64,000 nucleotides of DNA from Rhabdaerophilum calidifontis (GTDB taxonomy: Bacteria > Pseudomonadota > Alphaproteobacteria > Rhizobiales > Beijerinckiaceae), in assembly GCF_008641065.1 (NCBI RefSeq), contig NZ_VTRS01000007.1, positions 1 to 64,000 of the forward strand, in the 5' to 3' direction. This document shows positions 8,114 to 64,000 of the stretch, piece after piece (within the stretch, counting starts at the first letter, position 1; each line of letters opens with the position of its first letter). The notes beneath the pieces were generated by a model that ran no database searches, was not told the DNA's origin, and worked only from the letters and a program-made list of their open reading frames with translations. The translations under genes were made by a program, and so were the position numbers.

Positions 8114-8653
8114 CTAGCGGGGCGCGGCCGGCGCCACCGAACTCACGGAACTGGCGCTGATCGTCGTCGGCACCGCCCGCCCCATCATGTCGAGCAGGAC
8201 GATGATCCGCTCCCTGTCGATGAGCCGCACGAATTGCGCGATCATGTCTCCGTAAGGATCGTCATGCAGCGTCACGCAATCGCCGGGGCGCAGCTGATCG
8301 ACCAGCGCCGGCTCGGCGAGCAGCCCGGCCTCCTGCCGCACCCGCAGCGCCCGGACGACCCCCTGCGGCAGGGGCGCCGGATGTTCGCCGAAGCGGATCA
8401 GCGTCGAAACCCCCATGGTCGAGAGGATCGACCGCCAAGCCTGGCGGTCGATATCGATGCGCACGAAGAGATAGCGCGGAAATAACGGCCGCTCGACGAT
8501 CTCCTCCTTGCGGGCATGGCGCCGCCGCTTGCGGATCAGGGGCAGATAGGCCTCGAATCCCTGCCGACGCAGATGGTCGAGCGCCCGCGCCTCGCCATTG
8601 GGCTGGGTATGCACGACATACCAGCGTTCACCGCCCGGCTCCTCTGTGAGCAT
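8114..8653 (-). CDS. NusG/RfaH-family specialised transcription antiterminator
   Basis: From ATG 8653 the product is about 179 residues. An N-terminal NGN domain opens with RWYVVHTQPNGEARALDHL and contains VERPLFPRYLFVRID, typical of RfaH/UpxY-type NusG paralogs. A C-terminal KOW domain (LRPGDCVTLHDDPYGDM) would contact ribosome or Rho-side partners. The frame extends upstream to 8743, but homology starts after 8653. Such paralogs bind paused RNA polymerase at an ops sequence in the leader of long polysaccharide operons and suppress Rho termination. It lies divergent from the dehydrogenase gene at 8813, and an ops-like element occurs at 20295. It is clearly a specialised paralog rather than housekeeping NusG, because secE and ribosomal genes are absent. 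Confidence 0.85.
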   Translation of the reverse strand: MLTEEPGGERWYVVHTQPNGEARALDHLRRQGFEAYLPLIRKRRRHARKEEIVERPLFPRYLFVRIDIDRQAWRSILSTMGVSTLIRFGEHPAPLPQGVVRALRVRQEAGLLAEPALVDQLRPGDCVTLHDDPYGDMIAQFVRLIDRERIIVLLDMMGRAVPTTISASSVSSVAPAAPR

Positions 8654-8783
8654 CGTGGATCGCGCCCCGCAATTCGAAATCTGCCCCGGAGCATCGCCGC
8701 ATCGGGCCGATTCGCCAGGCCGGACGATCGGCGCCCTCGGCATCCGGGGAGTTGTGCTGACGGGAATTTGCCTCTACCGACGA

Positions 8784-17995: not shown

Positions 17996-20134
17996 TCACG
18001 CCGTGATCTGTCGCTGGATCGCGAAGGCGATCCGCATGGCCTGGGCCTGCTCCCAGAGCGGGATCGGCCAATCCCCGCCGGCCGTGATGGCGGTGTGGAA
18101 GGCGCGCAGCTCTTCCCGGTGCCCCTTCTCCGGCCGCGGCGCGCGCCAGCTGAGGCGCCCGTCGCTGGAGGACAGGGCCGTGTAATTGTCGAGGCTGTAG
18201 ACCCGGCCGTCGCAGAAGATTTCCATCCTTTCCTTCGGGAAACGGGCATCGCCCAGCGCCGTATAGGTGAGCACGGCCAGCGAGCCGTCCTCGAAGCGGA
18301 TCTGTGCCGAGAAATTGTCGTCCGGACGAAGGGCGCCGGACCGATCCCCGATCGCCATGGCACGGATCTCCTGCACGGGGGCGCCGGTCAGCGCCGTGAA
18401 GAGATCGTAGAAATGGCAGGCCTCGCCGATGTTGCGCCCGCCGCCTTCGGGGCCATGGACCCAGGTTTCCGGTGCAAGGTAGCCCGCATTCACGCGCAGA
18501 TCGATCATCATCGGCCCCTTCCGGTGCCGCAGCGCGGTGGAAAGCTGGCGGATCGGCGGCGAGAACCGCCGGTTGAACCCGGTCATCAGCACCGGGCCGG
18601 GCGTGTCGCGCGGGGCGAGCGCGGCTTCGATCCGCGCCAGTTCCTCTTCCGTCAGGCAGAGCGGCTTCTCGACGAAGACATGCCGCCCGGCCTCGATCGC
18701 CGCCAGAACCTGGCCGGCATGGAGATGATGGCGTGTCGCGATCAGCACCGCCTCGGTCTCCGGATCGTCGAGCAGCGCCGCGGGATCGGTCGCGGCCGCG
18801 AGGCCGCCGAACTGGCGCGCCGTGCTGACGGCACTCAGGCCCTGGCGGGTGACGATGGTCGTCAGCCGGAACCGGTCGCGCTCCGCGGCGATCAGCGGCA
18901 GCAGCGTTCCGGTCGCGAAGCCGCCCGCGCCGATCAGCCCGAGCCCGATCTGCCCGGTGCGCGCGCGCCGGACCACCGGGGCGGCGACCGGAATGATGCG
19001 CGCGGGCGCTGCGGCTTCCGGATACCGGAACAGGACCATCAGCGGGGCGTCGCCGCCCTCCTGAAGCCGGCGATACGCGGCCGCCGCCTCCTCCACCGGC
19101 ACGGGCGTGGCGATCAGATCCGCGATGTTCACCCGGCCGGCCGCGAGCAGATCCAGATAGGCGGCCATGTTGCGGTTCTCTGTCCAGCGGACAAAGCCGA
19201 GCGGATAATCGAGGCCCTCCTCCTCGTAGCGCCGGTCATAGCGGCCCGGCCCGTAAGAGGTGGAGATCAGCAGGTCGAGTTCCTTGGCATAGACATCGCC
19301 GCGATCGACCGCGAGCGCGACATCGCCGATCACCACGACGCGCCCCTTGCGGCGGCAGGCGCCGCAGGCCGCCGCCAGCACCCCCGGATCGCGCGTTGCG
19401 GCGGCGACGAGCACGCCATCGACGCCGTGCCCGCCGGTCAGGCGGGCCGCGAGGGCGGCCACATCCTCCGCCGCCGGATCGAGGACATGGGCGGCGCCCG
19501 CCCGCAGCGCCAGATCGCGCCGGGCGGCAAGCGGATCGACGCCGATGACCCGCACGCCATTGGCGTGGAGCAGCCGGCAGGCGAGCTGCCCGAGAATGCC
19601 GAGCCCGCTGACGAGAAACGTCTCTCCGATCGTCGGCGCGGCCCGCCGCACACCCTGGAGCGCGATGGCGCCCAGCGTCACCGTGCTGGCCTCCGCCTCG
19701 GCGAGGCCGTCCGGGACCAGCACGCAGAGATTCTCGGGCACGTTGACGAAGCCCGCGTGATGCGCCCAGTCGCTGCCGCCGCAGGCGACCCTGTCGCCCT
19801 CCCGGATCCCGGTGATGCCCGCGCCGATCCCGATCACGGTTCCGGCGGCCGAATAGCCGAGCGGCTGCAGGGCCTTCAGCTTGCGATCCACGAGCGCGCG
19901 GGTCTGCGCGATGCCGTTCTCCCGCGCATGCGCGATCAGGCGCTGAAGATCGCCGGACTTGTCGATCGCCCGCTTCCAGAGCGGCCGGTTGAGCGCGCGG
20001 ATGCCGCTCATCTCCGTTCCCACCGACACGCAGCTATGCCCGACGCGGACGAGCACCCGCCCCGGCTCGATGCCCGGCGCCGGAACCTCCGCCAGCGAAA
20101 CCCCGGCACGCGGCTGGATGACGACCTGTTTCAT
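17996..20134 (-). CDS. Bi-domain oxidoreductase: MDR dehydrogenase fused to Gfo/Idh/MocA
   Basis: The product is about 712 residues from ATG 20134. Residues 1-350 are a zinc-type alcohol dehydrogenase (MDR) domain, with GYSAAGTVIGIG, EGDRVACGG and the nucleotide-binding LVSGLGILGQLACRLL. Residues about 370-712 are a Gfo/Idh/MocA domain, with IGLGLIGAGGFATGTLLPLI and the catalytic EKP in VFVEKPLCL. This fusion is a recognised family in exopolysaccharide loci and probably carries out consecutive oxidation/reduction on a nucleotide sugar. The frame extends to 20359, but the extra residues are unrelated low-complexity sequence. It is the first gene of the minus operon, facing the large plus operon across a 290-base gap. 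Confidence 0.85.
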   Translation of the reverse strand: MKQVVIQPRAGVSLAEVPAPGIEPGRVLVRVGHSCVSVGTEMSGIRALNRPLWKRAIDKSGDLQRLIAHARENGIAQTRALVDRKLKALQPLGYSAAGTVIGIGAGITGIREGDRVACGGSDWAHHAGFVNVPENLCVLVPDGLAEAEASTVTLGAIALQGVRRAAPTIGETFLVSGLGILGQLACRLLHANGVRVIGVDPLAARRDLALRAGAAHVLDPAAEDVAALAARLTGGHGVDGVLVAAATRDPGVLAAACGACRRKGRVVVIGDVALAVDRGDVYAKELDLLISTSYGPGRYDRRYEEEGLDYPLGFVRWTENRNMAAYLDLLAAGRVNIADLIATPVPVEEAAAAYRRLQEGGDAPLMVLFRYPEAAAPARIIPVAAPVVRRARTGQIGLGLIGAGGFATGTLLPLIAAERDRFRLTTIVTRQGLSAVSTARQFGGLAAATDPAALLDDPETEAVLIATRHHLHAGQVLAAIEAGRHVFVEKPLCLTEEELARIEAALAPRDTPGPVLMTGFNRRFSPPIRQLSTALRHRKGPMMIDLRVNAGYLAPETWVHGPEGGGRNIGEACHFYDLFTALTGAPVQEIRAMAIGDRSGALRPDDNFSAQIRFEDGSLAVLTYTALGDARFPKERMEIFCDGRVYSLDNYTALSSSDGRLSWRAPRPEKGHREELRAFHTAITAGGDWPIPLWEQAQAMRIAFAIQRQITA

Positions 20135-20216
20135 GGCGTTCGATCTGAGCGGTTTGCGGCCTCCGGTCAAGCCGAAGCGGCCGTTTCCGCGGGGATCGGC
20201 CGCCGGCCCGCGATCC

Positions 20217-20245
20217 TTGACAAGCCTCCGGGCCAGAGGCAGAAC
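20217..20245 (+). promoter_or_regulatory. Candidate sigma-70 promoter of the large glycan operon
   Basis: TTGACA (20217-20222) is a perfect -35 box. After 17 bases comes CAGAAC (20240-20245), a degenerate -10 matching TATAAT at three positions. Transcription would start near 20252, about 43 bases before the ops-like element and about 170 bases before the first start codon. The arrangement resembles the helicase promoter candidate at 3902. Confidence 0.4.
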
Positions 20246-20290
20246 GGCGCCGCTTTCGGCTCCGGCAGCCCGGTGAAACCTGTTCACCCG

Positions 20291-20322
20291 GGCTGCGGTA
20301 GCGTGTCCGGACCTCCGCAGCC
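20291..20322 (+). promoter_or_regulatory. ops-like antitermination element inside an inverted repeat
   Basis: Bases 20295-20305 read GCGGTAGCGTG, identical to the last 11 of 12 bases of the E. coli ops element (GGCGGTAGCGTG) that pauses RNA polymerase and recruits RfaH. The site overlaps an inverted repeat: GGCTGCGG (20291-20298) pairs with CCGCAGCC (20315-20322), and the intervening bases contain the palindrome GTCCGGAC (20305-20312). It is on the non-template strand for the operon starting at 20425. The match is seen directly; recruitment of the protein encoded at 8114-8653 is inference. Confidence 0.6.
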
Positions 20323-20424
20323 GGGCTGAACCGTGTCTTCCGCAATCCTCCTGCCGCAAGGCTGCCTGGCCTCATCGCGCGCTGCGCGCCCGGTTGTCGC
20401 CGCGCCATTTCTCGGAAAAAGCTC

Positions 20425-21519
20425 TTGCCGGCCCTCGTTCATCTCGTTGCTGGCGCGCGGCCCAATTTCATGAAGGTGGCTCCGCTCTTCGATGCGCTGT
20501 CGGCGGAGCCCTGGTGCAGGGTCGCGCTGGTCCATACGGGCCAGCATCACGACGATGCCATGTCCGGCGTGCTGTTCCGGGATCTCGGTTTGCCGCCGCC
20601 GCACCATCATCTGGGGGTCGGCGGCGGCTCGCATGCCGAGCAGACCGGGCGCGTCATGGTCGCCTACGAGACCCTGATCCGCCGTGAACGGCCGGATTGC
20701 ACCATCGTGGTCGGCGATGTCGACAGCACGCTCGCCTGCACTCTGGCCGCGAAGAAGCTCGATTGCTTCGTCGCCCATCTCGAAGCCGGGTTGCGCAGTT
20801 TCGATCGGACGATGCCCGAAGAGATCAACCGTGTCGTCACCGACACCCTGGCCGACCTGCTCTGGACCCCGTCGCCCGACGCCGACGACAACCTCGCCGC
20901 CGAAGGCATCGCTGCGGACCGGATCGTCCGGGTCGGCAACATCATGATCGACACGCTGCTGCGGATGTGGCCGGCGATCCTCGCGGCGCCCGGCCCCGCG
21001 GCGCTCGGCCTGTCTTCGAAGGGTTTCGGCGTCGTGACGCTCCATCGTCCGGCGAATGTCGACCGGCCGGAGCCGCTGCGGCGCCTCGTCGACGCGCTGC
21101 TCCTCGCCGCGCGGCGCCTTCCGCTGGTCTTCCCTGTGCATCCGCGCACGCGCTCCGCATTGCAACGGCAGGGTTTCGAAACCGTCCTCGAACAGGGGGG
21201 CATCCGGCTGCTGCCGCCGCTCGGCTATGTCGAGTTCCTGGCGCTCGTCCGCGCTGCCGCCGTCGTGATCACCGATAGCGGCGGCATCCAGGAGGAGACG
21301 ACCTATCTCGACATCCCCTGCCTGACGCTGCGCCCGACGACCGAGCGGCCGATCACGGTGACGCAGGGCTCGAACCGTCTGGTCGCCCCGGAGACGCTCG
21401 ACCTGGCGCTTGCCGAGGTGCTCGCCGGCCGCCATCCGGGCGGGCGCCGGCCTGCTCTCTGGGACGGACAGACGGCCGGCCGCGTGGTCGCGAGCCTTCG
21501 CGCTCGCCTCGCAGCGTGA
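20425..21519 (+). CDS. wecB: UDP-N-acetylglucosamine 2-epimerase, non-hydrolysing
   Basis: The 364-residue product starts at TTG with GGAAA about 6 bases upstream. It contains VAGARPNFMKVAPL, the GDVDSTLAC nucleotide-site region, HLEAGLRSFDRTMPEEINR and DSGGIQEE, all characteristic of WecB/MnaA. It interconverts UDP-GlcNAc and UDP-ManNAc in the cytoplasm, supplying ManNAc or ManNAcA units. It is the first gene of the 43-kb operon and lies about 120 bases downstream of the ops-like element. A separate hydrolysing-type epimerase is encoded at 55426, so the two probably serve different sugars. Confidence 0.88.
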   Translation: MPALVHLVAGARPNFMKVAPLFDALSAEPWCRVALVHTGQHHDDAMSGVLFRDLGLPPPHHHLGVGGGSHAEQTGRVMVAYETLIRRERPDCTIVVGDVDSTLACTLAAKKLDCFVAHLEAGLRSFDRTMPEEINRVVTDTLADLLWTPSPDADDNLAAEGIAADRIVRVGNIMIDTLLRMWPAILAAPGPAALGLSSKGFGVVTLHRPANVDRPEPLRRLVDALLLAARRLPLVFPVHPRTRSALQRQGFETVLEQGGIRLLPPLGYVEFLALVRAAAVVITDSGGIQEETTYLDIPCLTLRPTTERPITVTQGSNRLVAPETLDLALAEVLAGRHPGGRRPALWDGQTAGRVVASLRARLAA

Positions 21520-27890: not shown

Positions 27891-28601
27891 ATGAGCGCCG
27901 CATTGACGCCGGACGCCTTTCTCTCGGAGCGGATGGGGCGCCCCGCCTTCACGCTGCACGCCCCGGAGCCGGGCGCGATCGCGGAGATGGCGCTTCCGGC
28001 CGCCCCGGCCTTCGTCACGGCGAAGGTGCCTGCCGCCGACACGCCCCGGCTCTGCGCGCTGCAGGCGCGCGGGTTCCGCGTCGTCGATACCGCATTGACC
28101 TTCGAGGCGCCGGGCCGGGCCGAAACGCCGCCGTCCGGCATCCGGGCCGCGCGGCCCCAGGACCGGGAGGCGGTGACGGACATCGCCCGGAAGGCGTTCC
28201 GCTTCACGCGCTTCCATCTCGATCCGGAGATCGACGACCACGTCGCGGCCCGGATCAAGGCCGATTGGGCCGGCAATTATTTCGCGGGCCGGCGCGGAGA
28301 CGGCATGCTCCTGGCCGAGGGACCGGCCGGCGGGGCCGCCGGATTTCTCCTCTTCCTGCGCGATGCCGAGGCGCGCCTGACCATCGATCTCATCGCCGTG
28401 GCGCCGGATATGGCCGGCCGCGGCCTGGGGCGGGCGCTCGTCGCGGCGGCCTTCGCCGATCGCACCGGCGGGGCGCCGCCATCCGGGCTGCTGGTCGGAA
28501 CCCAGGCCGCCAATACCCCCTCCTGCCGCCTCTACGAGGCGTGCGGCTTCCGCCTGGCCCGCGCGGCCTATGTCCTGCATCATCACGGCCTGCCGGCCTA
28601 A
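27891..28601 (+). CDS. GNAT-family N-acetyltransferase
   Basis: The product is 236 residues. The C-terminal half is a GNAT fold with motif A AVAPDMAGRGLGRALV (acetyl-CoA pyrophosphate loop) and the beta-bulge region VGTQAANTPSCRLYEACGF. The N-terminal half resembles the extra domain of WecD/LegH-like sugar acetyltransferases. It likely acetylates the amino group installed by the DegT-type aminotransferase at 48493, using acetyl-CoA in the cytoplasm. Its position immediately before a NeuB-like gene supports a nonulosonic-acid role. Confidence 0.8.
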   Translation: MSAALTPDAFLSERMGRPAFTLHAPEPGAIAEMALPAAPAFVTAKVPAADTPRLCALQARGFRVVDTALTFEAPGRAETPPSGIRAARPQDREAVTDIARKAFRFTRFHLDPEIDDHVAARIKADWAGNYFAGRRGDGMLLAEGPAGGAAGFLLFLRDAEARLTIDLIAVAPDMAGRGLGRALVAAAFADRTGGAPPSGLLVGTQAANTPSCRLYEACGFRLARAAYVLHHHGLPA

Positions 28602-28620
28602 TCTGTCGAAGGTGATCGCC

Positions 28621-29625
28621 ATGCGCATCGGCCCCGTTGACCTGACGCAGGACGTCCTGGTGATCGCCGAGATCGGCAACAATCACGAGGGGGATGTCGG
28701 GCTCGCGGAAGAGCTTGTCCATCTCGCAGCCGAGGCGGGCGCCCAGGCGGTCAAGTTCCAGTCGATCGAACCGCGGGCGCTGGTCGCGCCGGATCAGCCG
28801 GAGCGCCTCGCCCAGCTCGGGCGCTTCGCGCTCCCGGAGGCGGCGCATCACCGCCTCGCCGAGGCGGCGCGGCGGGCGGGTGTGATGTTCCTTTCGACGC
28901 CGTTCAGCCTCGGCATGGTCGATTTTCTCGCTCCGATCGCGCCGGCGCTGAAGATCGCCTCCGGCGACAACGATTTCCTGCCGCTGCTGGAACGCGCCGC
29001 AGGCACCGGGCTGCCGCTGATCCTCTCGACCGGCATGGCGGATCTGGCGATGGTCGCGCGGTCCAAGGCCGCGATCGAGGCCGTCTGGGCGCGCTCGGGT
29101 GTCGATCCCGGTCTCGTGCTGCTGCATTGCGTCTCCGCCTATCCGACGCCCGTCGGCGAGGCGAATCTCGCCGCCATCCGCACGCTTGCCGCGCTCGGGC
29201 GCCCCGTCGGCTATTCGGATCACACGCTCGGCATCGCCGCCGCGATTCTCGCGGTCGGGCTCGGCGCGCGGGTCATCGAGAAGCATTTCACGCGGTCCAA
29301 GACCCAGTCCGCGTTCCGGGATCACCAGCTTTCCGCGGAGCCGGCGGAGCTGCGCGAGATGGTGGCCCGGATCCGCGAGGCGAACGCGCTGCTGGGCGAC
29401 GGGGTGAAGCGCGCCATGCCCGCCGAGAGCGGGAGCGCGGCGCGCCGGTCGATCGCCGCGTCGCGCGATCTGCCCGCCGGGCATGTCCTGGCCTTCGCCG
29501 ATCTGGCATGGCTGCGCCCCGGCGGCGGCCTGCCGCCGGGCGCCGAGGCCGCCGTGCTCGGCCGCAGGCTGAAGCGGGCGGTTGCGGCCGGCGCGCGGCT
29601 ATCGCCTGCCGATATCGAGGATTGA
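28621..29625 (+). CDS. neuB: NeuB-like nonulosonic acid synthase (copy 1)
   Basis: The product is 334 residues from ATG 28621, which has GAAGGTGA as ribosome-binding site. The TIM-barrel opens VIAEIGNNHEGDVGLAEELV and contains AVKFQ, STPFS, LSTGMA and YSDHTLG, the PEP/metal-binding set of NeuB. A C-terminal SAF antifreeze-like domain begins near residue 275. It condenses a 6-carbon N-acetylated sugar with phosphoenolpyruvate to form a 9-carbon acid such as legionaminic, pseudaminic or neuraminic acid. A diverged second copy is at 53541. Which acid each makes cannot be told here. Confidence 0.85.
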   Translation: MRIGPVDLTQDVLVIAEIGNNHEGDVGLAEELVHLAAEAGAQAVKFQSIEPRALVAPDQPERLAQLGRFALPEAAHHRLAEAARRAGVMFLSTPFSLGMVDFLAPIAPALKIASGDNDFLPLLERAAGTGLPLILSTGMADLAMVARSKAAIEAVWARSGVDPGLVLLHCVSAYPTPVGEANLAAIRTLAALGRPVGYSDHTLGIAAAILAVGLGARVIEKHFTRSKTQSAFRDHQLSAEPAELREMVARIREANALLGDGVKRAMPAESGSAARRSIAASRDLPAGHVLAFADLAWLRPGGGLPPGAEAAVLGRRLKRAVAAGARLSPADIED

Positions 29626-32591: not shown

Positions 32592-33436
32592 CGCGCGCGC
32601 TGGCGCCCTCGATCGAATGTCCCTGCGCCGGCGCGCATCGGACCGAGGCCTATGCGTATGATCGGCCGCCCATGGGCGAGACCCGCTTCGATCTCGGTGC
32701 CACGGCCTATCGGCGCAGCTATGCCCGATGCGGCCTCTGCGGGCACTGGTTCGGCGCGCATGATCTCGATCTCTCCGCCCTCTATGCTGCGGATTATGTG
32801 GACAAGACCTATGGCGGGTCGGCCGGCATGGCGGCGCGTTTCGCCAGGATCCTCGCCCTGCCGCCGGAGCGCTCCGACAATGCCGGCCGCGTCGCGCGGC
32901 TTTCGGCCCTGGCCGACGCCCTGCTGCCGCCCGCCATGCCGCGCCGGCTGCTCGATATCGGCGCCGGGCTCGGGGTGTTCCCCGCGGGCATGGCCGCGAA
33001 GGGATGGGCGGTTCTCGCCGTGGAGCCGGATCCGCGCACGGTTGTCCATCTCCGCGAGGTCGTCGGCGTCGAGGCGCTGGAACAGCCGATCGAGGCGCTT
33101 TCGCGCGAGGAGATCGGCGGCTTTGCGCTGGTGAGCTTCAACAAGGTCCTCGAACATGTGGAGGAACCGGCCGCCATGCTGCGCCATGCCGGGCGCCTGC
33201 TCCTGCCCGGCGGGCTGGTCTATGTCGAGGTTCCCGATGGCGAGGCGGCGTCCGGGGATCCGGACGGCCCCGCCCGCGAGGAATTCTTCATCGAGCACCA
33301 CCATGTCTTTTCCCCGGCATCGCTGGCGATTCTGGTGGCCCGCGCGGGTTTCGTGCTGCGGCGCCTCGAGGCGTTGCGCGAACCGAGCGGCAAATACACC
33401 GTCTGGGCCGTGGCGGAGACGAGGGAGGCACCATGA
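32588..33436 (+). CDS. Class I SAM-dependent methyltransferase with N-terminal zinc ribbon
   Basis: The product is 282 residues. A Cys pair (CPC) and CGLC in the N-terminal 60 residues suggest a zinc ribbon. Motif I is LLDIGAGLGVFPAGM and motif IV is NKVLEHVEEPAAML. A segment ALPPERSDNAGRV is shared almost exactly with the methyltransferase at 54541, so the two are paralogs. The start overlaps the WbpG-type stop (ATGA). It probably methylates the sugar modified by that enzyme (inference). Confidence 0.8.
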   Translation: MTRALAPSIECPCAGAHRTEAYAYDRPPMGETRFDLGATAYRRSYARCGLCGHWFGAHDLDLSALYAADYVDKTYGGSAGMAARFARILALPPERSDNAGRVARLSALADALLPPAMPRRLLDIGAGLGVFPAGMAAKGWAVLAVEPDPRTVVHLREVVGVEALEQPIEALSREEIGGFALVSFNKVLEHVEEPAAMLRHAGRLLLPGGLVYVEVPDGEAASGDPDGPAREEFFIEHHHVFSPASLAILVARAGFVLRRLEALREPSGKYTVWAVAETREAP

Positions 33437-34560
33437 GCGGGGGCATGCGCGGCGCAGGCGTCTGGCGGCGCGAGGCGCCGGTGGAACGCGTGGCGGTAGC
33501 GATGGAACGCTGGACACCGCCCGCGGGGCGCGGCGGGCCGTTCGAGATCGAGGTGCGGACCGGAAAGCCCCTCGACGTCCTTGCCTTCAAGGGCACCGAT
33601 CTCGGCGAGGTCCGGGATTACGCCGCCTTCCTCAAGCGCTCGGCACAAGCGCTCTATGGCGAGGAGGCCGAACTCGAGACGCTCGCATCCTGCCCCGCCT
33701 GCGACGCGGCACAGCCCGTTCTCGAGGAGGCGTTCCGCGTCTTCGGCGTGGCCTATCACCAATGCCCGGCCTGCGGGCACGGATTCGTCGGCCGGCGCCC
33801 CTCCGCCGCCGCCTTCGCGCGCCATTTCGCCGCCTCCGACGACCATGCCGCGATCTATACCGACAGCGAGGCGGCGGAGCGCCGGATCGCGCGCATCGTT
33901 GCGCCGAAGCTCGATTGGGTTCTCGATCTCTTCCGCCGCCATCTCGGCCGTGCCCCCGCGACCGCGCTCGATATCGGGGCGGGCGGCGGGCATTTCGTCG
34001 CCGCGGCGCGGCGTGCCGGGATCGGCTGCGACGGGTTCGAACTGGCCGAGGGCTCGCGCCGCTTCGCGCGCGAAACGTTCGGAATCGCGCTCGACAATGC
34101 GGATTTCCGCGCGGCGCCCGCGCAGCCGGTCGATCTCGTGACCTTCTGGGGGCTGCTCGAATACATCCCCGCGCCGCGGCAATTCCTGCGCGCCGCCCGC
34201 GCCCGGCTCCAGCCGGGGAGGGGCATGCTCGTGGTGGAGGTTCCGCGCTTGGAGGCCGCCGGAACCCTGGCCCAGATCGCCCATCCCGAGGGCGTCGCCC
34301 GGCATATGGACCCCAGTTCGCATATCAATTGCTTTTCCGATTCCGGCCTGTTCTCGGCGCTGGTCGATACGGGCTTCCGCCCTGTCGCGGCCTGGTATTT
34401 CGGCATGGATGCCTACGAGCTGCTCGTCCAATGCGCGCTCGTGGCCGGCGAGGATGCGCTCGTCGCGCGCCTCGCGCATGCGATTCCGCTGCTCCAGGCC
34501 GGCTTCGATCACGGCCGGCTCTGCGACGACATCATCGTCGCGGCCGTGCCGGTGGAATGA
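33433..34560 (+). CDS. Class I SAM-dependent methyltransferase with zinc ribbon
   Basis: The product is 375 residues, starting at ATG 33433, which overlaps the previous stop. About 90 residues precede a zinc ribbon (CPAC and CPACGHGFVG), then motif I ALDIGAGGGHFVAAA and FWGLLEYIPAPRQFL. The C-terminal region contains SSHINCFSDSGL, a pattern shared by Methyltransf_23-type enzymes of surface-glycan loci. The gene is followed by a sulfotransferase whose start overlaps its stop. Bases 33492-33501 happen to match the ops core but lie inside this coding region. Confidence 0.78.
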   Translation: MSGGMRGAGVWRREAPVERVAVAMERWTPPAGRGGPFEIEVRTGKPLDVLAFKGTDLGEVRDYAAFLKRSAQALYGEEAELETLASCPACDAAQPVLEEAFRVFGVAYHQCPACGHGFVGRRPSAAAFARHFAASDDHAAIYTDSEAAERRIARIVAPKLDWVLDLFRRHLGRAPATALDIGAGGGHFVAAARRAGIGCDGFELAEGSRRFARETFGIALDNADFRAAPAQPVDLVTFWGLLEYIPAPRQFLRAARARLQPGRGMLVVEVPRLEAAGTLAQIAHPEGVARHMDPSSHINCFSDSGLFSALVDTGFRPVAAWYFGMDAYELLVQCALVAGEDALVARLAHAIPLLQAGFDHGRLCDDIIVAAVPVE

Positions 34561-35741
34561 GCCTCATGGCCCCGCATCCGCTTTTCGTCTTCGGCGTCGC
34601 CCGCGGCGGCACCAACCTGATCGCGCGGGTGCTCGCGGCGCATTCCGCCGTGGCGATCGGGATGGATCCGCTCATGCCGCTGTTCCGGTTCTGGCGCGAT
34701 GCCGTCATGGCGGAGGCGCGGGCCGGGCTCCTCCGGGAGCGGCCCGCGGGCGAGCCGTTCCAGGATTTCTATTTCGACGCCGATGGTCCGGCGATGCTGG
34801 CGGCGATGCTGGCGGCGCGGACGGATATCGCGATCCCGCCCGATCGTCTCGCGCCGCTCAGGGAGGCGCTCGCCGCTCGGGCGGCGCTCGAGAGCCCCGA
34901 TCTCGCGCGGCATCTCGTCCGCGTGGACGGCAGCGATGTCGCGGCGCTGATCGGCGCCGTGCTGGGCGCGGTCGCGGCCGAGGCGCGCGAGGCGGGGCGG
35001 GGGCCGCTCGCCTGGCTCGGCTGCAAGGAGGTCTGGACCGTCGATTTCCTGCCGGCGCTGGCCCGCGCCTTCCCCGATGCCCGCTTCGTCATCGTCCTGC
35101 GCGATCCGCGCGCGGTGCTCGCAAGCCTCATCGCCATGGCGGCCGGCGATCCGAGCCAGCACGCCCATGGCGTGAGCTATCTCCGGCACTGGCGCAAGCT
35201 GGTCGCGCTGGTCGCGCTGTTCCAGGCGCGACCGGATCTCGCGCCGCGCCTCACGGTGGCGCGTTTCGAGACCATGTGCCATGCCGCCGAGACCGAAGCC
35301 GGCCGGCTCGGCGCGTTTCTCGGCCTGCCTTTCGAGGCGGCGATGCTGCATCCCGGCGGGGAGAACGGCTGGCAGGGCAACAGCTCCTTCGGCGCGATCG
35401 GCACCGGCATTTCGCCTGCGGCCGCCGAGGGCTGGCGCCGGCGCATCGCTCCGGCGGATCATGCGCTCGCCGAATTCCTCTGCGCCCCGGAAATGGCGGC
35501 GGCCGGCTATGAGCCGGACGCTGTGCTGCCCGAACCGACCGATGCCGTGCTCCGCCGCATGCTCGATTTCCATGACGATCCGGGCAGCTGGCGCAGCGAT
35601 AGCGGCGACCCCTTCGCCGATCTCGCCTGGGAAGCGCTCAGGCACCGGCTTTGGCGCGCCCCCCCCTCTCTCCCCGAAACAGGGACCCTCATGGCGCGGT
35701 GTTTCTTGAACCCTGACGTTCTCCAGCAGCGAGCAGAATGA
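34557..35741 (+). CDS. Sulfotransferase family protein
   Basis: The product is 394 residues. FVFGVARGGTNLIARVL near the N-terminus is the 5'-phosphosulfate loop (GxxRxGT variant). ARFVIVLRDPRAVLASL-type sequence, FVIVLRDPRAVLAS here, is the 3'-phosphate-binding strand with the conserved Arg-Asp. It would transfer sulfate from PAPS to a sugar hydroxyl. CysD and CysNC, which make PAPS, are encoded two genes downstream in the same operon, supporting the assignment. No signal peptide is visible, so action on a cytoplasmic lipid-linked or nucleotide-linked intermediate is likely. Confidence 0.8.
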   Translation: MSLMAPHPLFVFGVARGGTNLIARVLAAHSAVAIGMDPLMPLFRFWRDAVMAEARAGLLRERPAGEPFQDFYFDADGPAMLAAMLAARTDIAIPPDRLAPLREALAARAALESPDLARHLVRVDGSDVAALIGAVLGAVAAEAREAGRGPLAWLGCKEVWTVDFLPALARAFPDARFVIVLRDPRAVLASLIAMAAGDPSQHAHGVSYLRHWRKLVALVALFQARPDLAPRLTVARFETMCHAAETEAGRLGAFLGLPFEAAMLHPGGENGWQGNSSFGAIGTGISPAAAEGWRRRIAPADHALAEFLCAPEMAAAGYEPDAVLPEPTDAVLRRMLDFHDDPGSWRSDSGDPFADLAWEALRHRLWRAPPSLPETGTLMARCFLNPDVLQQRAE

Positions 35742-36481
35742 TGAGCAGCAAATTCAGTTATGAGGAATATGTCGGGGATCAGAAATTCCTCAAGGAATAC
35801 AATGCGTATCAGGAGAAATATGCAAAAGACATTCGCCAGAGCGACAAGAAGATAATTGATATCATCATCAGAGGAATTCGCGGCTCGGAAGTCGTGCTCG
35901 ATATCGGCTGCTCGACCGGGAATCTCCTGAAGCATCTGCGCGGTGCCCTGCCGGCCGGAATCACCCTTGTCGGGGGTGATCTGGCCGAATCGTCGCTGGA
36001 ACTGGCCCGCGCCAATCCCGATCTCGCGGGAGTTGCGTTCGAAGCCATGGATATCATGGAGCTTCGGGCGGCGGCCTATGACGTGATCGTCGTCAACGCG
36101 GTGCTCTACATGATGACCGAGGCCCAATACGACATGGCCCTGGCATCCCTTCACCGCGCCCTCCGGCCGGGCGGGCGGGTGGTCATTTATGATTTCGCGC
36201 ATCCGTTCCAGCAGGAGCTTGAGATCATCGAGACCTCGGACAGCCATCCGCAGGGGCTGCGCCTCTGCTTCCGTTCGGAAAAGCGGATCGCGGCGGCCTT
36301 TGCCGCGGCAGGCTTCGCGAGCTGGGAATTCCAGCCTTTCGAACTGCCGATCGACCTGCCCAGGCAGCCCTATCCCAACGACCTCATCACCTATACCCGC
36401 AAGGACGAGCACGGCGCGCGGATGATGTTCCGGGGCACGCTGTTCCAGCCCTGGTGCCACATGATCGCGCGGAAGGCCTGA
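35738..36481 (+). CDS. Class I SAM-dependent methyltransferase
   Basis: The product is 247 residues. Motif I is [15 protein letters not shown], and [13 protein letters not shown] with [12 protein letters not shown] are motifs IV-VI. The first 45 residues are Lys/Tyr/Asp-rich and their codons are much more AT-rich than the flanking genes, hinting at a different origin. It overlaps the sulfotransferase by 4 bases and precedes cysD. It could methylate the same sugar that is sulfated, but this is only positional inference. Confidence 0.8.
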
Positions 36482-36488
36482 CGGGGCG

Positions 36489-37421
36489 ATGTCGACGCGC
36501 CGCGCCATGGCGGAGGATTCCGCGCCGGTCTCCGATCTCGATCTGCTGGAGGCGGAATCCATCCACATCCTCCGCGAGGTGGCGGCGCAGTTCGCCAATC
36601 CGGTGCTGCTGTATTCGATCGGCAAGGACAGCTCCGTCCTTCTGCATCTGGCGATGAAGGCCTTTTACCCCGCGCCGCCGCCCTTCCCGCTGCTGCATGT
36701 CGATACCGGCTGGAAATTCAGGGAGATGATCGCGTTCCGGGATCGCCGCGCGCGGGAACTCGGCCTGCGCCTGCTGGTGCATATCAACCCGGAGGGTCTC
36801 GCGCGTGGCATCAACCCGCTCGATCATGGTTCCGCGCTCCATACCGACATCATGAAGACGCAGGGGCTGCGGCAGGCGCTCGATGCCCATCGCTTCGACG
36901 CAGCCATCGGCGGCGCCCGGCGCGACGAGGAGGCCGTGCGGGCGAAGGAACGGGTGTTCTCGCTGCGCGCCCCCGGCCATGGCTGGGAGCCGCGCCGTCA
37001 GCGCCCCGAACTCTGGCGGCTCTACAACGGCCGCATGGCGCAGGGCGAGACGATGCGGGTCTTCCCGCTCTCGAACTGGACCGAGCTGGATGTCTGGCGC
37101 TACATCGCCCGCGAGGGGATTCCGGTCGTTCCGCTCTATTTCGCCCGGCCGCGCCCGGTTGTCGAGCGCAACGGCCTGCTGCTGATGGTCGATGACGACC
37201 GGCTGAGGATCGGGCCGGAGGAGATCGTGCGCGAGCGGATGGTCCGCTTCCGGACTCTGGGCTGCTATCCGCTGACCGGGGCCATCGTCTCCGAAGCCGC
37301 GACCCTTGAGGCGATCATCGCCGAAATGGCGGAATCGCGTTCCTCCGAGCGGCAGGGCCGCGCGATCGACCACGATCAATCCGGCTCGATGGAGAAGAAG
37401 AAGCGCGAGGGGTATTTCTGA
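36489..37421 (+). CDS. cysD: CysD, sulfate adenylyltransferase small subunit
   Basis: The 310-residue product has the PP-loop [13 protein letters not shown] near residue 40, the [11 protein letters not shown] and GGARRDEE motifs, and the C-terminal KKREGYF tail typical of CysD. With CysN it forms APS from ATP and sulfate, coupled to GTP hydrolysis. The gene shares one base with the next start (TGATG), so subunit synthesis is coupled. No cysH, cysI or cysG follows, so the purpose here is activated sulfate for the sulfotransferase rather than reduction to cysteine. Confidence 0.93.
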
Positions 37422-39289
37422 TGGCGCTGCCGGATTCCGGGCCATCCGCGCGCGGTCTGTTGCGGTTCCTGACCTGCGGCAGCGTCGATGACGGCAAGAG
37501 CAGCCTGATCGGGCGGCTGCTGTTCGAGGCCCGCGCCATCATGGACGACCAGATGGCGAAGCTCGACCGGGACAGCCGCAAGCATGGCACGACCGGCGCG
37601 GCGCCGGACCTCGCCCTGCTCGTGGACGGGCTGCAGGCCGAGCGGGAACAGGGCATCACGATCGATGTCGCCTACCGGTTCTTCGGCACGCCCAGGCGGA
37701 AATTCATCGTGGCCGACACGCCGGGCCATGAGCAATATACCCGCAACATGGCGACCGGCGCCTCGACGGCGGATCTCGCCATCATCCTGGTCGATGCCCG
37801 CAAGCGCCTGCTGCCGCAGACCTTCCGACACAGCCGGATCGCCGCCCTGCTGGGGATCCGCCATGTCGTGCTGGCGGTCAACAAGATGGATCTCGTCGGC
37901 TATGATCAGGCGGTCTTCGAGGCAATCCGCGCCGCCTACGCGCCGCTGGCGCAAGGCCTCGGGTTCCGCTCCGTCGAATCCATTCCGGTCTCGGCCCTCA
38001 ACGGCTGCAACATCGCCGGCGCGCCGGCGTCGACCATGCCGTGGTATCAGGGGGTGACGCTGCTTCCCTATCTCGAGACGGTGGACATCACCCCGGCCGC
38101 GCCGGGGCCGTTCCGGATGCCGGTGCAGCATGTCATCCGCGTCGCGCCGGATTTCCGGGGCTATGCCGGGACGATCGCGGGAGGCACCGTCGCGCCCGGC
38201 GATTCCGTCGTCGTGCTTCCCTCGGGGCGCGCATCGCGTGTCGGGCGCATCGTCACCATGGCGGGCGACCTGCCGCGCGCCGGGGCGGGGCAGGCGGTGA
38301 CGCTGACGCTTGCGGACGATGTCGATATCGCGCGGGGCGATCTCCTCGCCTCCGCCGAAAGCCCCCCCGAATTCGCCGATCAGCTGGCGGCGGATCTGGT
38401 CTGGATGGCGGAGACGCCGCTGCTGCCGGGCCGGCGCTACCTGCTGCGGGTCGGGACATCGGAAACCGGGGTCGCGATCACCGCCCTCAAGCACGAGATC
38501 GATATCGCGACGGGCGAGCCGCGCGCCGCGCGGGCGCTGGCCATGAACGCGATCGGGCGCGTGACCCTGGGGCTCGACCGCGCGATCCCGTTCGATCCCT
38601 ACGAGTCCTGCCGCGAGACCGGCGGCTTCATCCTCATCGACCGGGAAAGCGGGGATGTCCTGGCGGCTGGCATGATCCGGCACGCCCTGCGCCGGGCCTC
38701 CAACATCGCCTGGCAGGGCTTCTCGGTGGACCGCGCCGCCCGCGCGCGGCTCAAGGGGCATCAGGGCGCCGCGATCTGGTTCACCGGCCTTTCAGGCTCG
38801 GGGAAATCGACGCTCGCGGACAGGCTCGACCGGGCGCTGGTGCGCGAGGGCTGCCATACCTACGTGCTGGACGGCGACAATATCCGGCACGGCCTCAACC
38901 GCGATCTCGGCTTCACCGAGGCCGATCGGGTTGAGAATATCCGTCGGGTCGCCGAGGTGGCGCGGCTGTTCGTGGATGCGGGGCTGATCGTGATCGTCTC
39001 GTTCATCTCGCCCTTCCGGGCCGATCGCGCCATGGCCAGGTCGCTGTTCGAGCCGGGCCGGTTCTTCGAGGTCTTCGTCGATACGCCGCTCGAGGAATGC
39101 GAGCGCCGCGACCCCAAGGGCCTCTATGCCAAGGCGCGCGCCGGCAAGCTTCCGAACTTCACGGGGATCGACCAGCCCTACGAGCCGCCCGAAACCCCCG
39201 AATTGCGGATCATGACCGGCGAGCTGAGCCCGGAGGCCGGGGCCGAGCGCCTCCTCGGCCTGCTGCGCGGCGGGGGAATCCTGCCGTGA
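37421..39289 (+). CDS. cysNC: CysNC, fused sulfate adenylyltransferase GTPase and APS kinase
   Basis: The product is 622 residues. Residues 1-430 are CysN: GTPase G1 [15 protein letters not shown]3 [13 protein letters not shown]4 NKMD, then an EF-Tu-like beta-barrel. The last 180 residues are APS kinase: Walker [15 protein letters not shown] and [16 protein letters not shown]. Together with CysD it converts sulfate to PAPS. The fused NodQ-type arrangement is common in alphaproteobacteria. It lies in the same operon as the sulfotransferase at 34557 and overlaps the following gene by 4 bases (GTGA). Confidence 0.93.
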
Positions 39290-40716
39290 AGCGGCGGGTG
39301 CTGTTCACCTTCTCGGTTCTTCATGCCCGCGCCGAAATGGCGCGCCTGATGCCGGAATTCCGGGATCGGGGCTGGGATGTGCACCTGCTGATCGGCTTTC
39401 GCGGGCCGGCCGCCGATGCGCTGGCGGCGGCGGCGCAGGCCGAGGGGACCACGGTCCACCGCGTCCCCGATCCCTGGGCCTATGGCGCAGCGCCGGCGAA
39501 CCCGGCGCAGGATGCCGGCGCGGCGGCCGGCACGGTCCGTAGGCCCGGGCGCAGGCCGCGCGTGCCCGCACCGCTTCGCCCCTTCGTCAACGCGCTGCTC
39601 TATGCGTGCGGCGGCTTCCGCCAGCGCGCGCATGCCCGCCGGCTTCTCGGGGATATCCGGCCGGACGTGGTGGTCGCGAACAATTTCCACAGCTGCTGCG
39701 AGTTCGACAACGCGATGAATGTCGAGGCGCGGCGGCAGGGCGTGCCGCGCGCCTGCGTGCTGACATCGCCGCTGGTCGCCGGGATCATCGGCCGCCGGGC
39801 CCGTCTGTCCAATTACCATCTCGGGATGGTCGATGGCAGCCACCGGGCCGATGCGCATCTGCTCTCCCGTATCCTCGCCCGCCTGCGGCCGGATTGGACC
39901 GTGGGGGAGGGCGCCGAGCGCATCCTGTGCTGGCCGGGGGAGAAGATCGCGGGCGGCTTCATCGCCGGCCTCGCCCGGCGCGATGTCTGGGAAAATCCTT
40001 CCGGCGATTTCGACCGGATCTACGCGCCGTCGGACAAATCCCGGCAGCTTCTCGTGGCGAGCGGCACCGAGGCCGGGCTGATCCGGGTCTTCGGCCCGCC
40101 GCGGCTCGACCCCGTGATCGCCGAGGCGGCCGATAGTTCGCTCCGCGCCGAAATGGCGGCCCGCTTCGGCCTGCGGCCGGACGAGCCCTATATCCTCTAC
40201 AATGTCGAGCCGTCCTGGGAGCATCATTACTGCGACCGGGAAACCCATTTCGCGCGCATCGAGCGCATCGCGGCCTTCCTCGTCCGGCAGCCGCTGCGCA
40301 CGCTCGTGTCCCTCCATCCCCTCTGCGCGGCGGAGGATTACGCGCCGCTGCTGGAGCGCGCGCCGCAGATCACGATCAGCCGCGGGATGGGGATCGAGCG
40401 GCTCTATCCCGGCTGCCGCCTGGTACTGTCCTTCGGCTGCTCCACCAATGCCTATGCGGTGCTCTGGAACAAGCCGCTGGTGATGTATGACTGGTTCGGC
40501 ATCCGCGCCGATCCATGGCGCTGGTCGCTCTACGATCAGCCGCGCCTCACCGCCGTGACGAGTTTCGAGGATCTCGAGCGCTGCGTCGCGGCGGAGTTGC
40601 TGCGCCCGGTGGACTCCGGCATCCCGGAGACGCTTCCGGTCTCGCCGGCTGCGCCCCGCATCGTCGACGACATCATCGCGCTTGCCTCGCGCCCGCCGCT
40701 ATCCCAAACAGCCTGA
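39286..40716 (+). CDS. Probable GT-B-like surface glycan protein of unknown specificity
   Basis: The 476-residue product starts at GTG overlapping the cysNC stop. The N-terminal domain opens [21 protein letters not shown], like a GT-B acceptor domain. The C-terminal half contains [25 protein letters not shown] and [22 protein letters not shown], reminiscent of capsule/polysialic-type transferases and epimerase-like folds in which a donor-binding loop selects the sugar. No classical E-x7-E is clear. I cannot assign the linkage. Position after PAPS synthesis does not help to define it. Confidence 0.55.
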
Positions 40717-53540: not shown

Positions 53541-54539
53541 ATGCGGACGATGATCATCGCCGAGATCGGCTCCGTTCATGACGGCTCGTTCGGGAATGCC
53601 TGCAAGCTGATCGAGCTCGCCGCCGAATGCGGGGCCGATATCGTCAAGTTCCAGACGCATATCCCGGCCGCCGAGACGTTGCGCGACGCGCCGATGCCGC
53701 CCTATTTCAAGGGCGAGCCGCGCTTCGAATATTTCGAGCGCACCGGGTTCTCGCGGCCGCAATGGCGCGATCTGCAGCGGGCCTGCGCGGCGGCCGGCAT
53801 CGGCTTCCTGTCCTCGCCGTTCTCGCTCGAGGCGGTCGATCTCCTCGAGGAGATCGGCGTCGATCTCTACAAGGTGCCGTCCGGCGAGACGAGCAACCTG
53901 CCGCTGCTGGAGCGACTCGCCGAGACCGGCAAGCCGGTCCTTCTCTCGACCGGCATGTCGAACTGGGCGGAGATCGACGCGGCCGTGGCGATCCTCCGGG
54001 GTGGCGGGCCGCTCTGCGTCATGCAATGCACCTCCGCCTATCCCTGCCCGCCGGAGCGGGTCGGGCTCAACGTGCTGGCGGAGATGCGCGCGCGCTACGG
54101 CGTGCCGGTTGGCTTCTCGGATCACACGCTGGGGCCGGCGGCCGCGCTCGCCGCCGCCGCGCTCGGCGCCGGCGTGATCGAGAAGCACCTGACCTTCTCA
54201 CGGAAAATGTATGGCTCCGACGCCGCCAATTCCATGGAGCCGGCGGAATTCGCGGCGCTCTGCCGCGATCTCCGCGCCGTCTGGACCATGCTCGACAACC
54301 CGGTCGAGAAGGACGATCTGGCCCCGTATCGCGACATGAAGCGGATTTTCGAGAAATCCGTCGTCACCGCGCGGGCCCTGGCCGCGGGAACGACGATCCG
54401 GCGCGAGGATCTCGCCTTCAAGAAGCCGGGCGACGGGATCCCGGCGGCCCGGTATCGCGATCTTCTCGGCCGGCGCGTGCTGCGCGACCTGCCGGCCGAT
54501 CACAAGCTCGCGGCCGCCGAGATCGAGGGATGGAACTGA
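53541..54539 (+). CDS. neuB: NeuB-like nonulosonic acid synthase (copy 2)
   Basis: The product is 332 residues. It contains IIAEIGSVHDGSFGNACKLI, IVKFQTH, LSSPFS, LSTGMSN and FSDHTLG in a TIM barrel, then a SAF domain from about residue 275. The second substrate loop reads SVHDGS instead of NNHEGD, so substrate preference may differ from copy 1. The gene starts 1 base after the AsnB copy 3 stop. With the NeuC-like and NeuA-like genes at 55426 and 56597 it forms a compact nonulosonic-acid block. Confidence 0.85.
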   Translation: MRTMIIAEIGSVHDGSFGNACKLIELAAECGADIVKFQTHIPAAETLRDAPMPPYFKGEPRFEYFERTGFSRPQWRDLQRACAAAGIGFLSSPFSLEAVDLLEEIGVDLYKVPSGETSNLPLLERLAETGKPVLLSTGMSNWAEIDAAVAILRGGGPLCVMQCTSAYPCPPERVGLNVLAEMRARYGVPVGFSDHTLGPAAALAAAALGAGVIEKHLTFSRKMYGSDAANSMEPAEFAALCRDLRAVWTMLDNPVEKDDLAPYRDMKRIFEKSVVTARALAAGTTIRREDLAFKKPGDGIPAARYRDLLGRRVLRDLPADHKLAAAEIEGWN

Positions 54540-56596: not shown

Positions 56597-57292
56597 ATGC
56601 GGTTCCTCGCCATCATCCCGGCCCGGGGCGGCTCCAAGGGGGTTCCGCGCAAGAACATCCGGATGGTCGCCGGCCGCCCGCTCATCGCCTGGACGATCGA
56701 GGCCGCGCGGCTTTCCGGCGCGCTCGACCGGATCGCCGTCTCGACGGAGGATGCCGAGATCGCGGCGATCGCGCGCGCCTGGGGCGCCGAGATTTTCGAG
56801 CGCCCCGCCGCCCTGGCGGAGGATGCGACGCCGACGCGCGATGTCCTCTGGCATCATGTCGCGGATTGCGCCGCCGCAGGCTATCATCCCGATGCGGTGG
56901 TGACGCTGCAGCCGACATCGCCGCTGCGCCGCCCCGAGCAGTTGCGCGCGGCCTGCGCGGCCTTTGCGGCCGATCCCCGCGCCGACAGCCTCGTGAGCTG
57001 CATCGATGTGCCGCATATCTTCCACCCGCTTTCGGTCATGCGCCTCGGCCCGGACGGATATCTGCGGCCCTATCTCGATCAGCCGGCGACGCCGACGCGG
57101 CGGCAGGAGAAGCCGCCGGCGCTGGCCCGCAACGGCGCCGCAATCTACATCACCCGCACGGCGCGGCTCGCCGATTACGTGTTCGGCGGCAATCTGCTCC
57201 CCTTCCCGATGCCTGTCGAGGACAGCCTCGACATCGACGAGGAGCAGGATCTGGAGGCGGCCGAGCGGTGCCTGAGGGAGCGTCACCCGTGA
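56597..57292 (+). CDS. neuA: CMP-nonulosonate cytidylyltransferase, NeuA/LegF-like
   Basis: The 231-residue product has FLAIIPARGGSKGVPRKNI (nucleotide-binding P-loop-like segment) and TLQPTSPLRRPEQL, plus the acidic DSLDIDEEQDLE near the C-terminus that binds metal. It activates the 9-carbon acid from NeuB as the CMP-sugar for transfer. It sits 4 bases after the NeuC-like gene. LegF versus NeuA or PseF cannot be separated by eye. Confidence 0.86.
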   Translation: MRFLAIIPARGGSKGVPRKNIRMVAGRPLIAWTIEAARLSGALDRIAVSTEDAEIAAIARAWGAEIFERPAALAEDATPTRDVLWHHVADCAAAGYHPDAVVTLQPTSPLRRPEQLRAACAAFAADPRADSLVSCIDVPHIFHPLSVMRLGPDGYLRPYLDQPATPTRRQEKPPALARNGAAIYITRTARLADYVFGGNLLPFPMPVEDSLDIDEEQDLEAAERCLRERHP

Positions 57293-63704: not shown

Positions 63705-64000
63705 TTGCAGGTTCCCCGGACACCGTCCCCGGCGCGCTGCCGCGCGTGCTCTTCGTGACGCCGCACGCATTCAATGCCGTCACCGGCGGGGGGATCACGT
63801 TCTCGGCGCTGTTCCGCGGCTGGCCGGAGGACCGGATCGCGACCGTGCACAACGATCCCGAACCGACGACCGGCGATGTCTGTCGCCGCTATTTCGTTCT
63901 CGGCCGCGACGAACTGGATTATGCGCCGCCGCTGCCGGCGATCCGCCGGCTGCTCGGACGCGGCGCGGGGGGCGATGGCGGCCCCTCGGGGCCGACCGTC
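63701..64000 (+). CDS. Glycosyltransferase, N-terminal fragment (cut by window end)
   Basis: Translation from ATG 63701 gives 100 residues to the window edge without a stop. RVLFVTPHAFNAVTGGGITF resembles the acceptor-side opening of GT4 enzymes (glycine-rich loop after the first strand). ATG overlaps the stop of the preceding glycosyltransferase (ATGA). The rest, including the donor domain, is outside, so the family is only suggested. Confidence 0.6.
   Translation, partial: MIAGSPDTVPGALPRVLFVTPHAFNAVTGGGITFSALFRGWPEDRIATVHNDPEPTTGDVCRRYFVLGRDELDYAPPLPAIRRLLGRGAGGDGGPSGPTV

Follow-up and report, generated by a model that had tools for sequence, protein, structure and literature searches.

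An 11-base sequence that differs from the 12-base ops element of Escherichia coli only in missing its first base stands at 20295-20305 (plus strand) of the 64,000-nucleotide stretch of Rhabdaerophilum calidifontis DNA analysed here (the window), in the leader of a long glycan gene cluster. We consider it probable, at about 0.85, that this site acts as an ops-type loading signal for an RfaH-like NusG paralog, P0001, encoded in the same window. As the two lie 11.6 kb apart, the regulation would be in trans. An RfaH/ops interpretation had been put forward in a sequence-only reading of this DNA, and the comparisons reported below support it.

The 11-mer, GCGGTAGCGTG, was confirmed by exact match, as that reading had claimed. 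It corresponds to positions 2-12 of the E. coli ops 12-mer, GGCGGTAGCGTG, with T at position 1 in the window; thus 11/12 bases are identical and all bases with a reported role are kept. According to the available text of PMC5995543, bases 3-8 of E. coli ops serve RfaH recognition, and the flanking bases 2, 11, and 12 serve pausing; with the numbering used there, the pause RNA 3′ end is predicted at U11 (20304), followed by G12 (20305). In the 3,086,309-base genome, both strands included, the 11-mer occurred only here, whereas the reversed control string occurred six times. One-mismatch matches in the window, however, numbered 2 against 1.92 expected from shuffles, about as frequent as by shuffling, so that the 11-mer by itself is no proof and the argument rests on conservation.

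The site lies on the non-template strand, 120 bp 5′ of a 45.8-kb co-directional cluster that runs on the plus strand from 20425 through the end of the window at 64000 and, on the contig, to 66243, as delimited by ORFs and Pfam matches. The distance of about 120 bases to the first gene, as claimed earlier, held with a TTG start at 20425; this gene (20425-21519, plus strand) belongs by Pfam to the UDP-GlcNAc 2-epimerase family (PF02350). A start site predicted about 43 bases before ops was not confirmed, since a sigma-70 promoter scan of 20000-20700 found none. One of the two perfect TTGACA hexamers on the plus strand of the window is located at 20217-20222 and is a candidate -35 element; a consensus -10 was not found. 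The cluster encodes glycosyltransferases, two NeuB proteins, a cytidylyltransferase, three AsnB-type (asparagine-synthase-like) enzymes, sulfate activation enzymes, a sulfotransferase, an ABC exporter, and methyltransferases, and it may be read as one operon giving one transcript. Two of the scanned ORFs, 39097-40716 and 56866-58974, had no Pfam match, and at 31.5-35.6 kb a codon-bias heuristic favoured minus-strand ORFs, whereas Pfam supports the plus strand. Two NeuB-type synthase genes are accompanied by PAPS-reductase, CysN/C-like, and sulfotransferase genes (28570-29625, 53541-54539, and 33156-39289), a gene content which suggests a sulfated nonulosonic-acid-like glycan.

The putative partner, P0001, is encoded on the minus strand. 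The sequence-only reading had placed a NusG paralog at 8114-8653; the gene is present, but the full ORF extends over 8114-8743, and 8653 is an internal ATG that may nevertheless be the start. Its NGN domain spans 8345-8626, and the genome carries one further NusG-domain gene. P0001 scored 133.1 bits against the RfaH profile (TIGR01955), 73.8 against UpxY, 51.2 against NusG, and 28.7 against LoaP. The RfaH score is below the equivalog cut-off of 144.5, which none of 385 genomes of the class exceeded. The best PDB sequence matches were E. coli RfaH chains at 62 bits, compared with 38 bits for NusG, and the predicted structure superposed on RfaH of the ops complex (8pen) at 1.6 Å over 96 columns. 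P0001 keeps the ops contacts H20, R23, and Q24, but carries Q in place of the ops contact K10, M in place of the ops contact R73, and R in place of E48, which RfaH requires for autoinhibition. The missing E48 suggests that P0001 would not be autoinhibited. AlphaFold predicted its CTD as a beta-barrel with high confidence; however, a control over the RfaH cut-off (L147, with 23 other such sequences as alignment) was also predicted as beta, with low confidence (47-73 by block in the CTD). The prediction did not tell the two classes apart, and because the control too came out as beta, it was not used as evidence for or against fold switching. The gene is patchily distributed, since in a 149-genome sample of the family each of the five other genomes of the same genus had a single match of 33-45 bits, at the level of canonical NusG.

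We compared 51 RfaH-like sequences (the window included, L076 left out, L052 taken from a record titled Deltaproteobacteria, and nearly all taken as alphaproteobacterial) with 24 from outside the class that score over the RfaH cut-off (L152, which has an internal stop, and L172-L176 left out), the latter presumably gammaproteobacterial from their E. coli-like sequence. Among the 51, E48 occurred in 0, R73 in 8, and K10 in 3, whereas among the 24 the counts were 20, 23, and 21, respectively. H20 (20), R23 (29), Q24 (50), F56 (51), and R138 (50) were also counted in the 51. The NGN beta-hairpin carries a HAR motif in 45/51 RfaH-like sequences versus 0/24 over the cut-off, and in all four proteins extracted from f182, a family outside the class. 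A quick 87-row tree set its four NusG rows, which come from the organism's own family, apart from the RfaH-like rows with an SH-aLRT of 100; P0001 was nearer RfaH than NusG in sequence and, as judged against these four, in the tree. The class rows and f182 formed one group (91; the long branches L052 and L072 inside), with the over-cut-off rows around it.

The earlier reading had proposed searching the leaders of relatives for the 11-mer. This check was run, and the interpretation survived it: an element was found that co-occurs with RfaH-like genes and is located behind the rfaH-like gene or before glycan genes. The exact 11-mer occurred 14 times in 50 loci collected by family and named-genome searches, compared with three times for the reversed control, and all 14 copies sat just behind the rfaH-like gene, on that gene's strand. 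When the 420 nt behind the stop codon of the NusG-domain gene were scanned in 51 loci (the window and some canonical NusG genes included; the contig of L046 ended before the gene's end), at least 10 of the 12 ops bases were found in 22, at 53-245 nt; the window was not among these 22. Alignment of the relatives revealed a longer conserved block, TTCACCCGRACTGCGGTAGCGTG. A sequence-only model, R1, was built from 32 relatives with the window left out, and among its matches in the organism's genome the window site came top (E = 1.9e-5, 26.3 bits; next match E = 0.617). With 26.3 bits, and with P = 0.095 for its own hairpin against shuffles, the window site is among the weaker elements of the set.

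The distribution of the element was then compared with that of RfaH-like genes in the 385 class genomes, taking TIGR01955 scores of at least 86 bits as RfaH-like and R1 matches at E ≤ 1e-3 as the element. By these thresholds, 87 genomes had an RfaH-like gene and 43 the element, which was present in 41/87 RfaH-bearing genomes versus 2/298 without (both, 41; element only, 2; RfaH only, 46; neither, 296; Fisher P = 2.4e-28), four genomes with TIGR01955 scores of 72.9-73.8 bits being counted as RfaH-less. The two element-only genomes were 74% complete (G274) and in about 630 contigs (G373). After removal of the 10 training genomes and the organism's own genome, the ratio was 30/76 versus 2/298 (P = 2.8e-21). 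At E ≤ 1e-3, R1 found no element in 46 of the 87 RfaH-bearing genomes. Weak matches, with E up to about 0.02, occurred in 34 further genomes, 15 with an RfaH-like gene and 19 without, and 31 RfaH-bearing genomes had no match even at E of about 0.02. In a phylum sample of 249 genomes, which overlaps the class set, the element was present in 9/54 genomes with an RfaH-like gene (at least 78 bits) versus 1/195 without, and five of the nine co-occurrences fell in family f182.

The genes beside the element were examined in 20 fetched loci; in most of these, rfaH was on a different contig or kilobases away. The scan was confined to ORFs on the same strand as the element, and in 5/20 loci it took an ORF beyond the first (115-258 aa). 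A downstream same-strand ORF matched families frequent in glycan clusters in 18/20 loci and nothing in 2/20; polysaccharide and nucleotide-sugar enzymes, DegT aminotransferases, Gfo/Idh/MocA oxidoreductases, asparagine synthase, formyl- and methyltransferases, a glycosyltransferase, and ABC exporters were found. One genome, G271, has two elements (L127 and L135), the first behind its rfaH-like gene and the second on a different contig, where a DegT-type aminotransferase gene follows. In family f61 (L064:2885; L079:2901) the element is found upstream of rfaH but on the other strand, and transcription of rfaH and of the ops-led genes therefore diverges. Plasmid records with a P0001 relative numbered 68, of which seven were fetched and scanned. 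In the Bradyrhizobium sp. ISRA443 plasmid about 51 kb separate the rfaH-like gene from the element, which stands 5′ of glycan genes; in Mesorhizobium sp. 131-2-5 the element is directly 3′ of the rfaH-like gene. Agrobacterium sp. MA01 carried GCGGTAGCTTG with an unrelated hairpin 5′ of an epimerase gene, without a good R1 score. On the RfaH-bearing plasmids of Cereibacter, Sulfitobacter, and Sphingobium, R1 gave weak matches only, and on that of Marivivens no match.

In a set of 64 distinct elements, made up of the 32 training rows, the window site, and 31 more, ops positions 2-5 and 7-9 were identical in 64/64, where the training rows had been chosen by a pattern fixing most conserved ops bases and the other 32 by a score not requiring them. 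Position 2 was G in 64/64, position 6 T in 59/64, position 11 T in 60/64, and position 12 G in 50/64; positions 1 (mostly T) and 10 vary. A recurrent variant with one extra base, GCGG[T/C]AGC-CGTG (L050:4476; L187; L071), keeps most recognition bases; the extra base would shift the pause by one.

Directly adjoining the ops core in the window, a hairpin is predicted at 20267-20294 on the plus strand, with a 5′ arm at 20267-20277, a loop at 20278-20282, and a 3′ arm at 20283-20286 plus 20288-20294; it includes GTTCACCCG. In a 32-row ungapped alignment RNAalifold recovered only two pairs, both inside ops. As loop lengths differ among the relatives, the upstream hairpin was tested instead by shuffling the 5′ half: the 45 bases before ops were folded in each of the 64 elements, with the first 30 shuffled. 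The natural sequences folded better than the shuffled ones (mean z = -1.85; P ≤ 0.05 in 33/64), whereas a control segment further upstream reached P ≤ 0.05 in 14/63, so that the excess at the element is little over twofold above the control; the excess of the control over 5% perhaps reflects real intergenic hairpins. The 3′ edge of the last stem adjoined ops in 20/64 and was no more than five bases away in 59/64. The sequence-only reading had instead noted an inverted repeat, 20291-20298 with 20315-20322. It is present, as part of a larger predicted fold at 20287-20325, but it is not conserved in relatives: the corresponding hairpin reached P ≤ 0.05 in 6/64 (P = 0.06 in the window), and it was ruled out as the conserved one, which is that at 20267-20294. 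The stable 20287-20325 fold (plus strand) pairs the ops region with downstream sequence, would sequester ops in the RNA, and is mutually exclusive with the upstream hairpin.

An alternative is that loading is RNA-borne, as for LoaP with an RNA hairpin, the protein or a partner recognising the conserved hairpin with its CACC arm while the ops DNA is only a pause. This would fit the pair types, read from minimum-energy folds that lean towards pairing, which change on both sides in columns -5 to -2 (e.g. C-G to T-A and G-C to C-G), and also CACC of the hairpin arm, invariant in 32/32 training rows, and the absence of the K10 and R73 ops contacts from most proteins. However, the bases identical in 64/64 elements include ones that are dispensable for E. 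coli pausing according to the available text of PMC5995543; furthermore, the Agrobacterium hairpin is of quite different sequence, and the arms in f182 are partly different. We regard RNA-borne loading as unlikely. The HAR motif could contact upstream DNA, and there is a hint that it is tied to the TTCACCC arm; the f182 proteins have HAR, two of them with partly different arms.

It is decidedly improbable that the site is a plain consensus pause, or a transcription-translation checkpoint in a long leader, in which the RfaH-like protein takes no part. The counts at positions 2, 11, and 12 (G 64, T 60, and G 50 of 64) do fit a consensus pause, but a plain pause would leave the strong co-occurrence with RfaH-like genes and the conservation of the central recognition bases unaccounted for. 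Still less probable is an attenuator, an intrinsic terminator, or a metabolite-binding leader RNA. Strong leader folds would suit such an RNA, yet the folding of the whole 171-nt leader was unremarkable (z = -1.09), and no T-run terminator was found in 20000-20700. Moreover, an Rfam search of 19800-20800 up to E = 10 gave four matches, all below their gathering scores. The only one in register was JUMPstart (RF01707; 14.1 bits at 20271-20305, gathering score 35), a family whose stem-loop directly 5′ of ops has its counterpart in the 20267-20294 fold (P = 0.095 for the window alone); an RsmW match on the other strand (E = 0.14; 23.4 bits, gathering score 52) was dismissed. A chance match in a GC-rich leader, for which the shuffle-like frequency of one-mismatch matches might speak, is hardly credible given a genome-unique 11-mer, 14 versus 3 exact copies in the loci, the first rank under R1, and the co-occurrence with RfaH.

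Under the preferred reading of the site as an ops-type loading signal, the leader would be transcribed from a promoter near 20217. By analogy with E. coli ops and from the geometry of the leader, the nascent RNA hairpin 20267-20294 would form as RNA polymerase reaches ops, and the hairpin together with the consensus pause would halt polymerase when the RNA 3′ end is at U11 (20304). The exposed non-template strand may then make a small ops hairpin, which the NGN domain of the RfaH-like protein would bind. If P0001 behaves as E. coli RfaH, it would stay on the polymerase and exclude NusG and Rho, and the whole cluster would be transcribed. Against this reading stand the sub-cut-off RfaH score of P0001 and its substitutions at K10, R73, and E48, the RfaH-bearing genomes and plasmids with weak matches or none, the weaker standing of the window site, and its distance from the rfaH-like gene.

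As to origin, the sequence-only reading had left deep conservation and convergence side by side. Convergence is the less favoured of the two: the class's RfaH-like proteins cluster with those from outside, away from NusG, and hairpin plus ops occur inside and outside the class alike, which is better explained if ops use is deeply conserved or has passed between classes. A further proposal, which we hold at even odds, is that ops-specific loading is ancestral to the RfaH lineage and preceded autoinhibition and fold switching; the alphaproteobacterial proteins would read the same bases through a different pocket, mostly without R73 and K10, and without the E48 lock, with help from a pause hairpin joined directly to ops and perhaps from contact of the HAR loop with the upstream arm. 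In the available text of PMC7593976 (2020), ops contacts and autoinhibition are placed together as late steps, and in that of PMC13015549 (a 2026 preprint), RfaHs predicted to be non-switching are described as ops-independent. The element, taken with the absence of E48 and the mostly missing K10 and R73, casts doubt on the published account in which ops recognition is a late gain coupled to autoinhibition; if our proposal is true, non-switching RfaHs would be selective through DNA and not, as proposed, by ops-free action in cis. Both the late joint origin and the ops-independence of non-switchers become directly testable. With the co-occurrence, a specific and predictable DNA target can be named for a group of RfaH-like proteins, and the element offers a means to predict which glycan clusters of soil- and plant-associated bacteria fall under RfaH-like control.

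Among known systems, the element most resembles JUMPstart (RF01707) of gammaproteobacteria, with which it shares a polysaccharide-operon leader and a hairpin 3′ arm that ends at, or no more than two bases from, GCGGTAGCGTG; in the E. coli record the ops/JUMPstart element ends 75 bp before rfbB. It differs in the hairpin sequence (3′ arm TTCACCCGRACT), in ops position 1, which is mostly T in the new elements, and in position 10, which is variable. With E. coli as the positive control, RF01707 gave no match at E ≤ 1 in 12 other loci of the new kind. JUMPstart is listed for gammaproteobacteria, and a conserved stem-loop is mentioned, in the available text of Weinberg and co-workers (PMC2864571). 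Alphaproteobacteria make up 18% of rfaH genes in PMC7593976, and ops is not named for them in its available text. For alphaproteobacteria, neither ops nor JUMPstart was found to be reported in the literature searched, which lay mostly outside subscription papers and covered accessible portions of, among others, PMC7593976, PMC13015549, PMC6391919, and PMC7819879.

UpxY, LoaP, and TaA are likewise specialised NusG paralogs of long polysaccharide or secondary-metabolite operons, but P0001 scores lower to UpxY and LoaP than to RfaH. The recruitment modes of UpxY, LoaP, and TaA are termed unknown in the available text of PMC7593976. P0001 shares with E. coli RfaH the NGN-KOW architecture, and the RfaH-like proteins of its class group with RfaH-like ones from outside. 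They differ from RfaH, however, in mostly having neither K10 nor R73 and never E48, in commonly carrying HAR, and in being often encoded beside the putative target.
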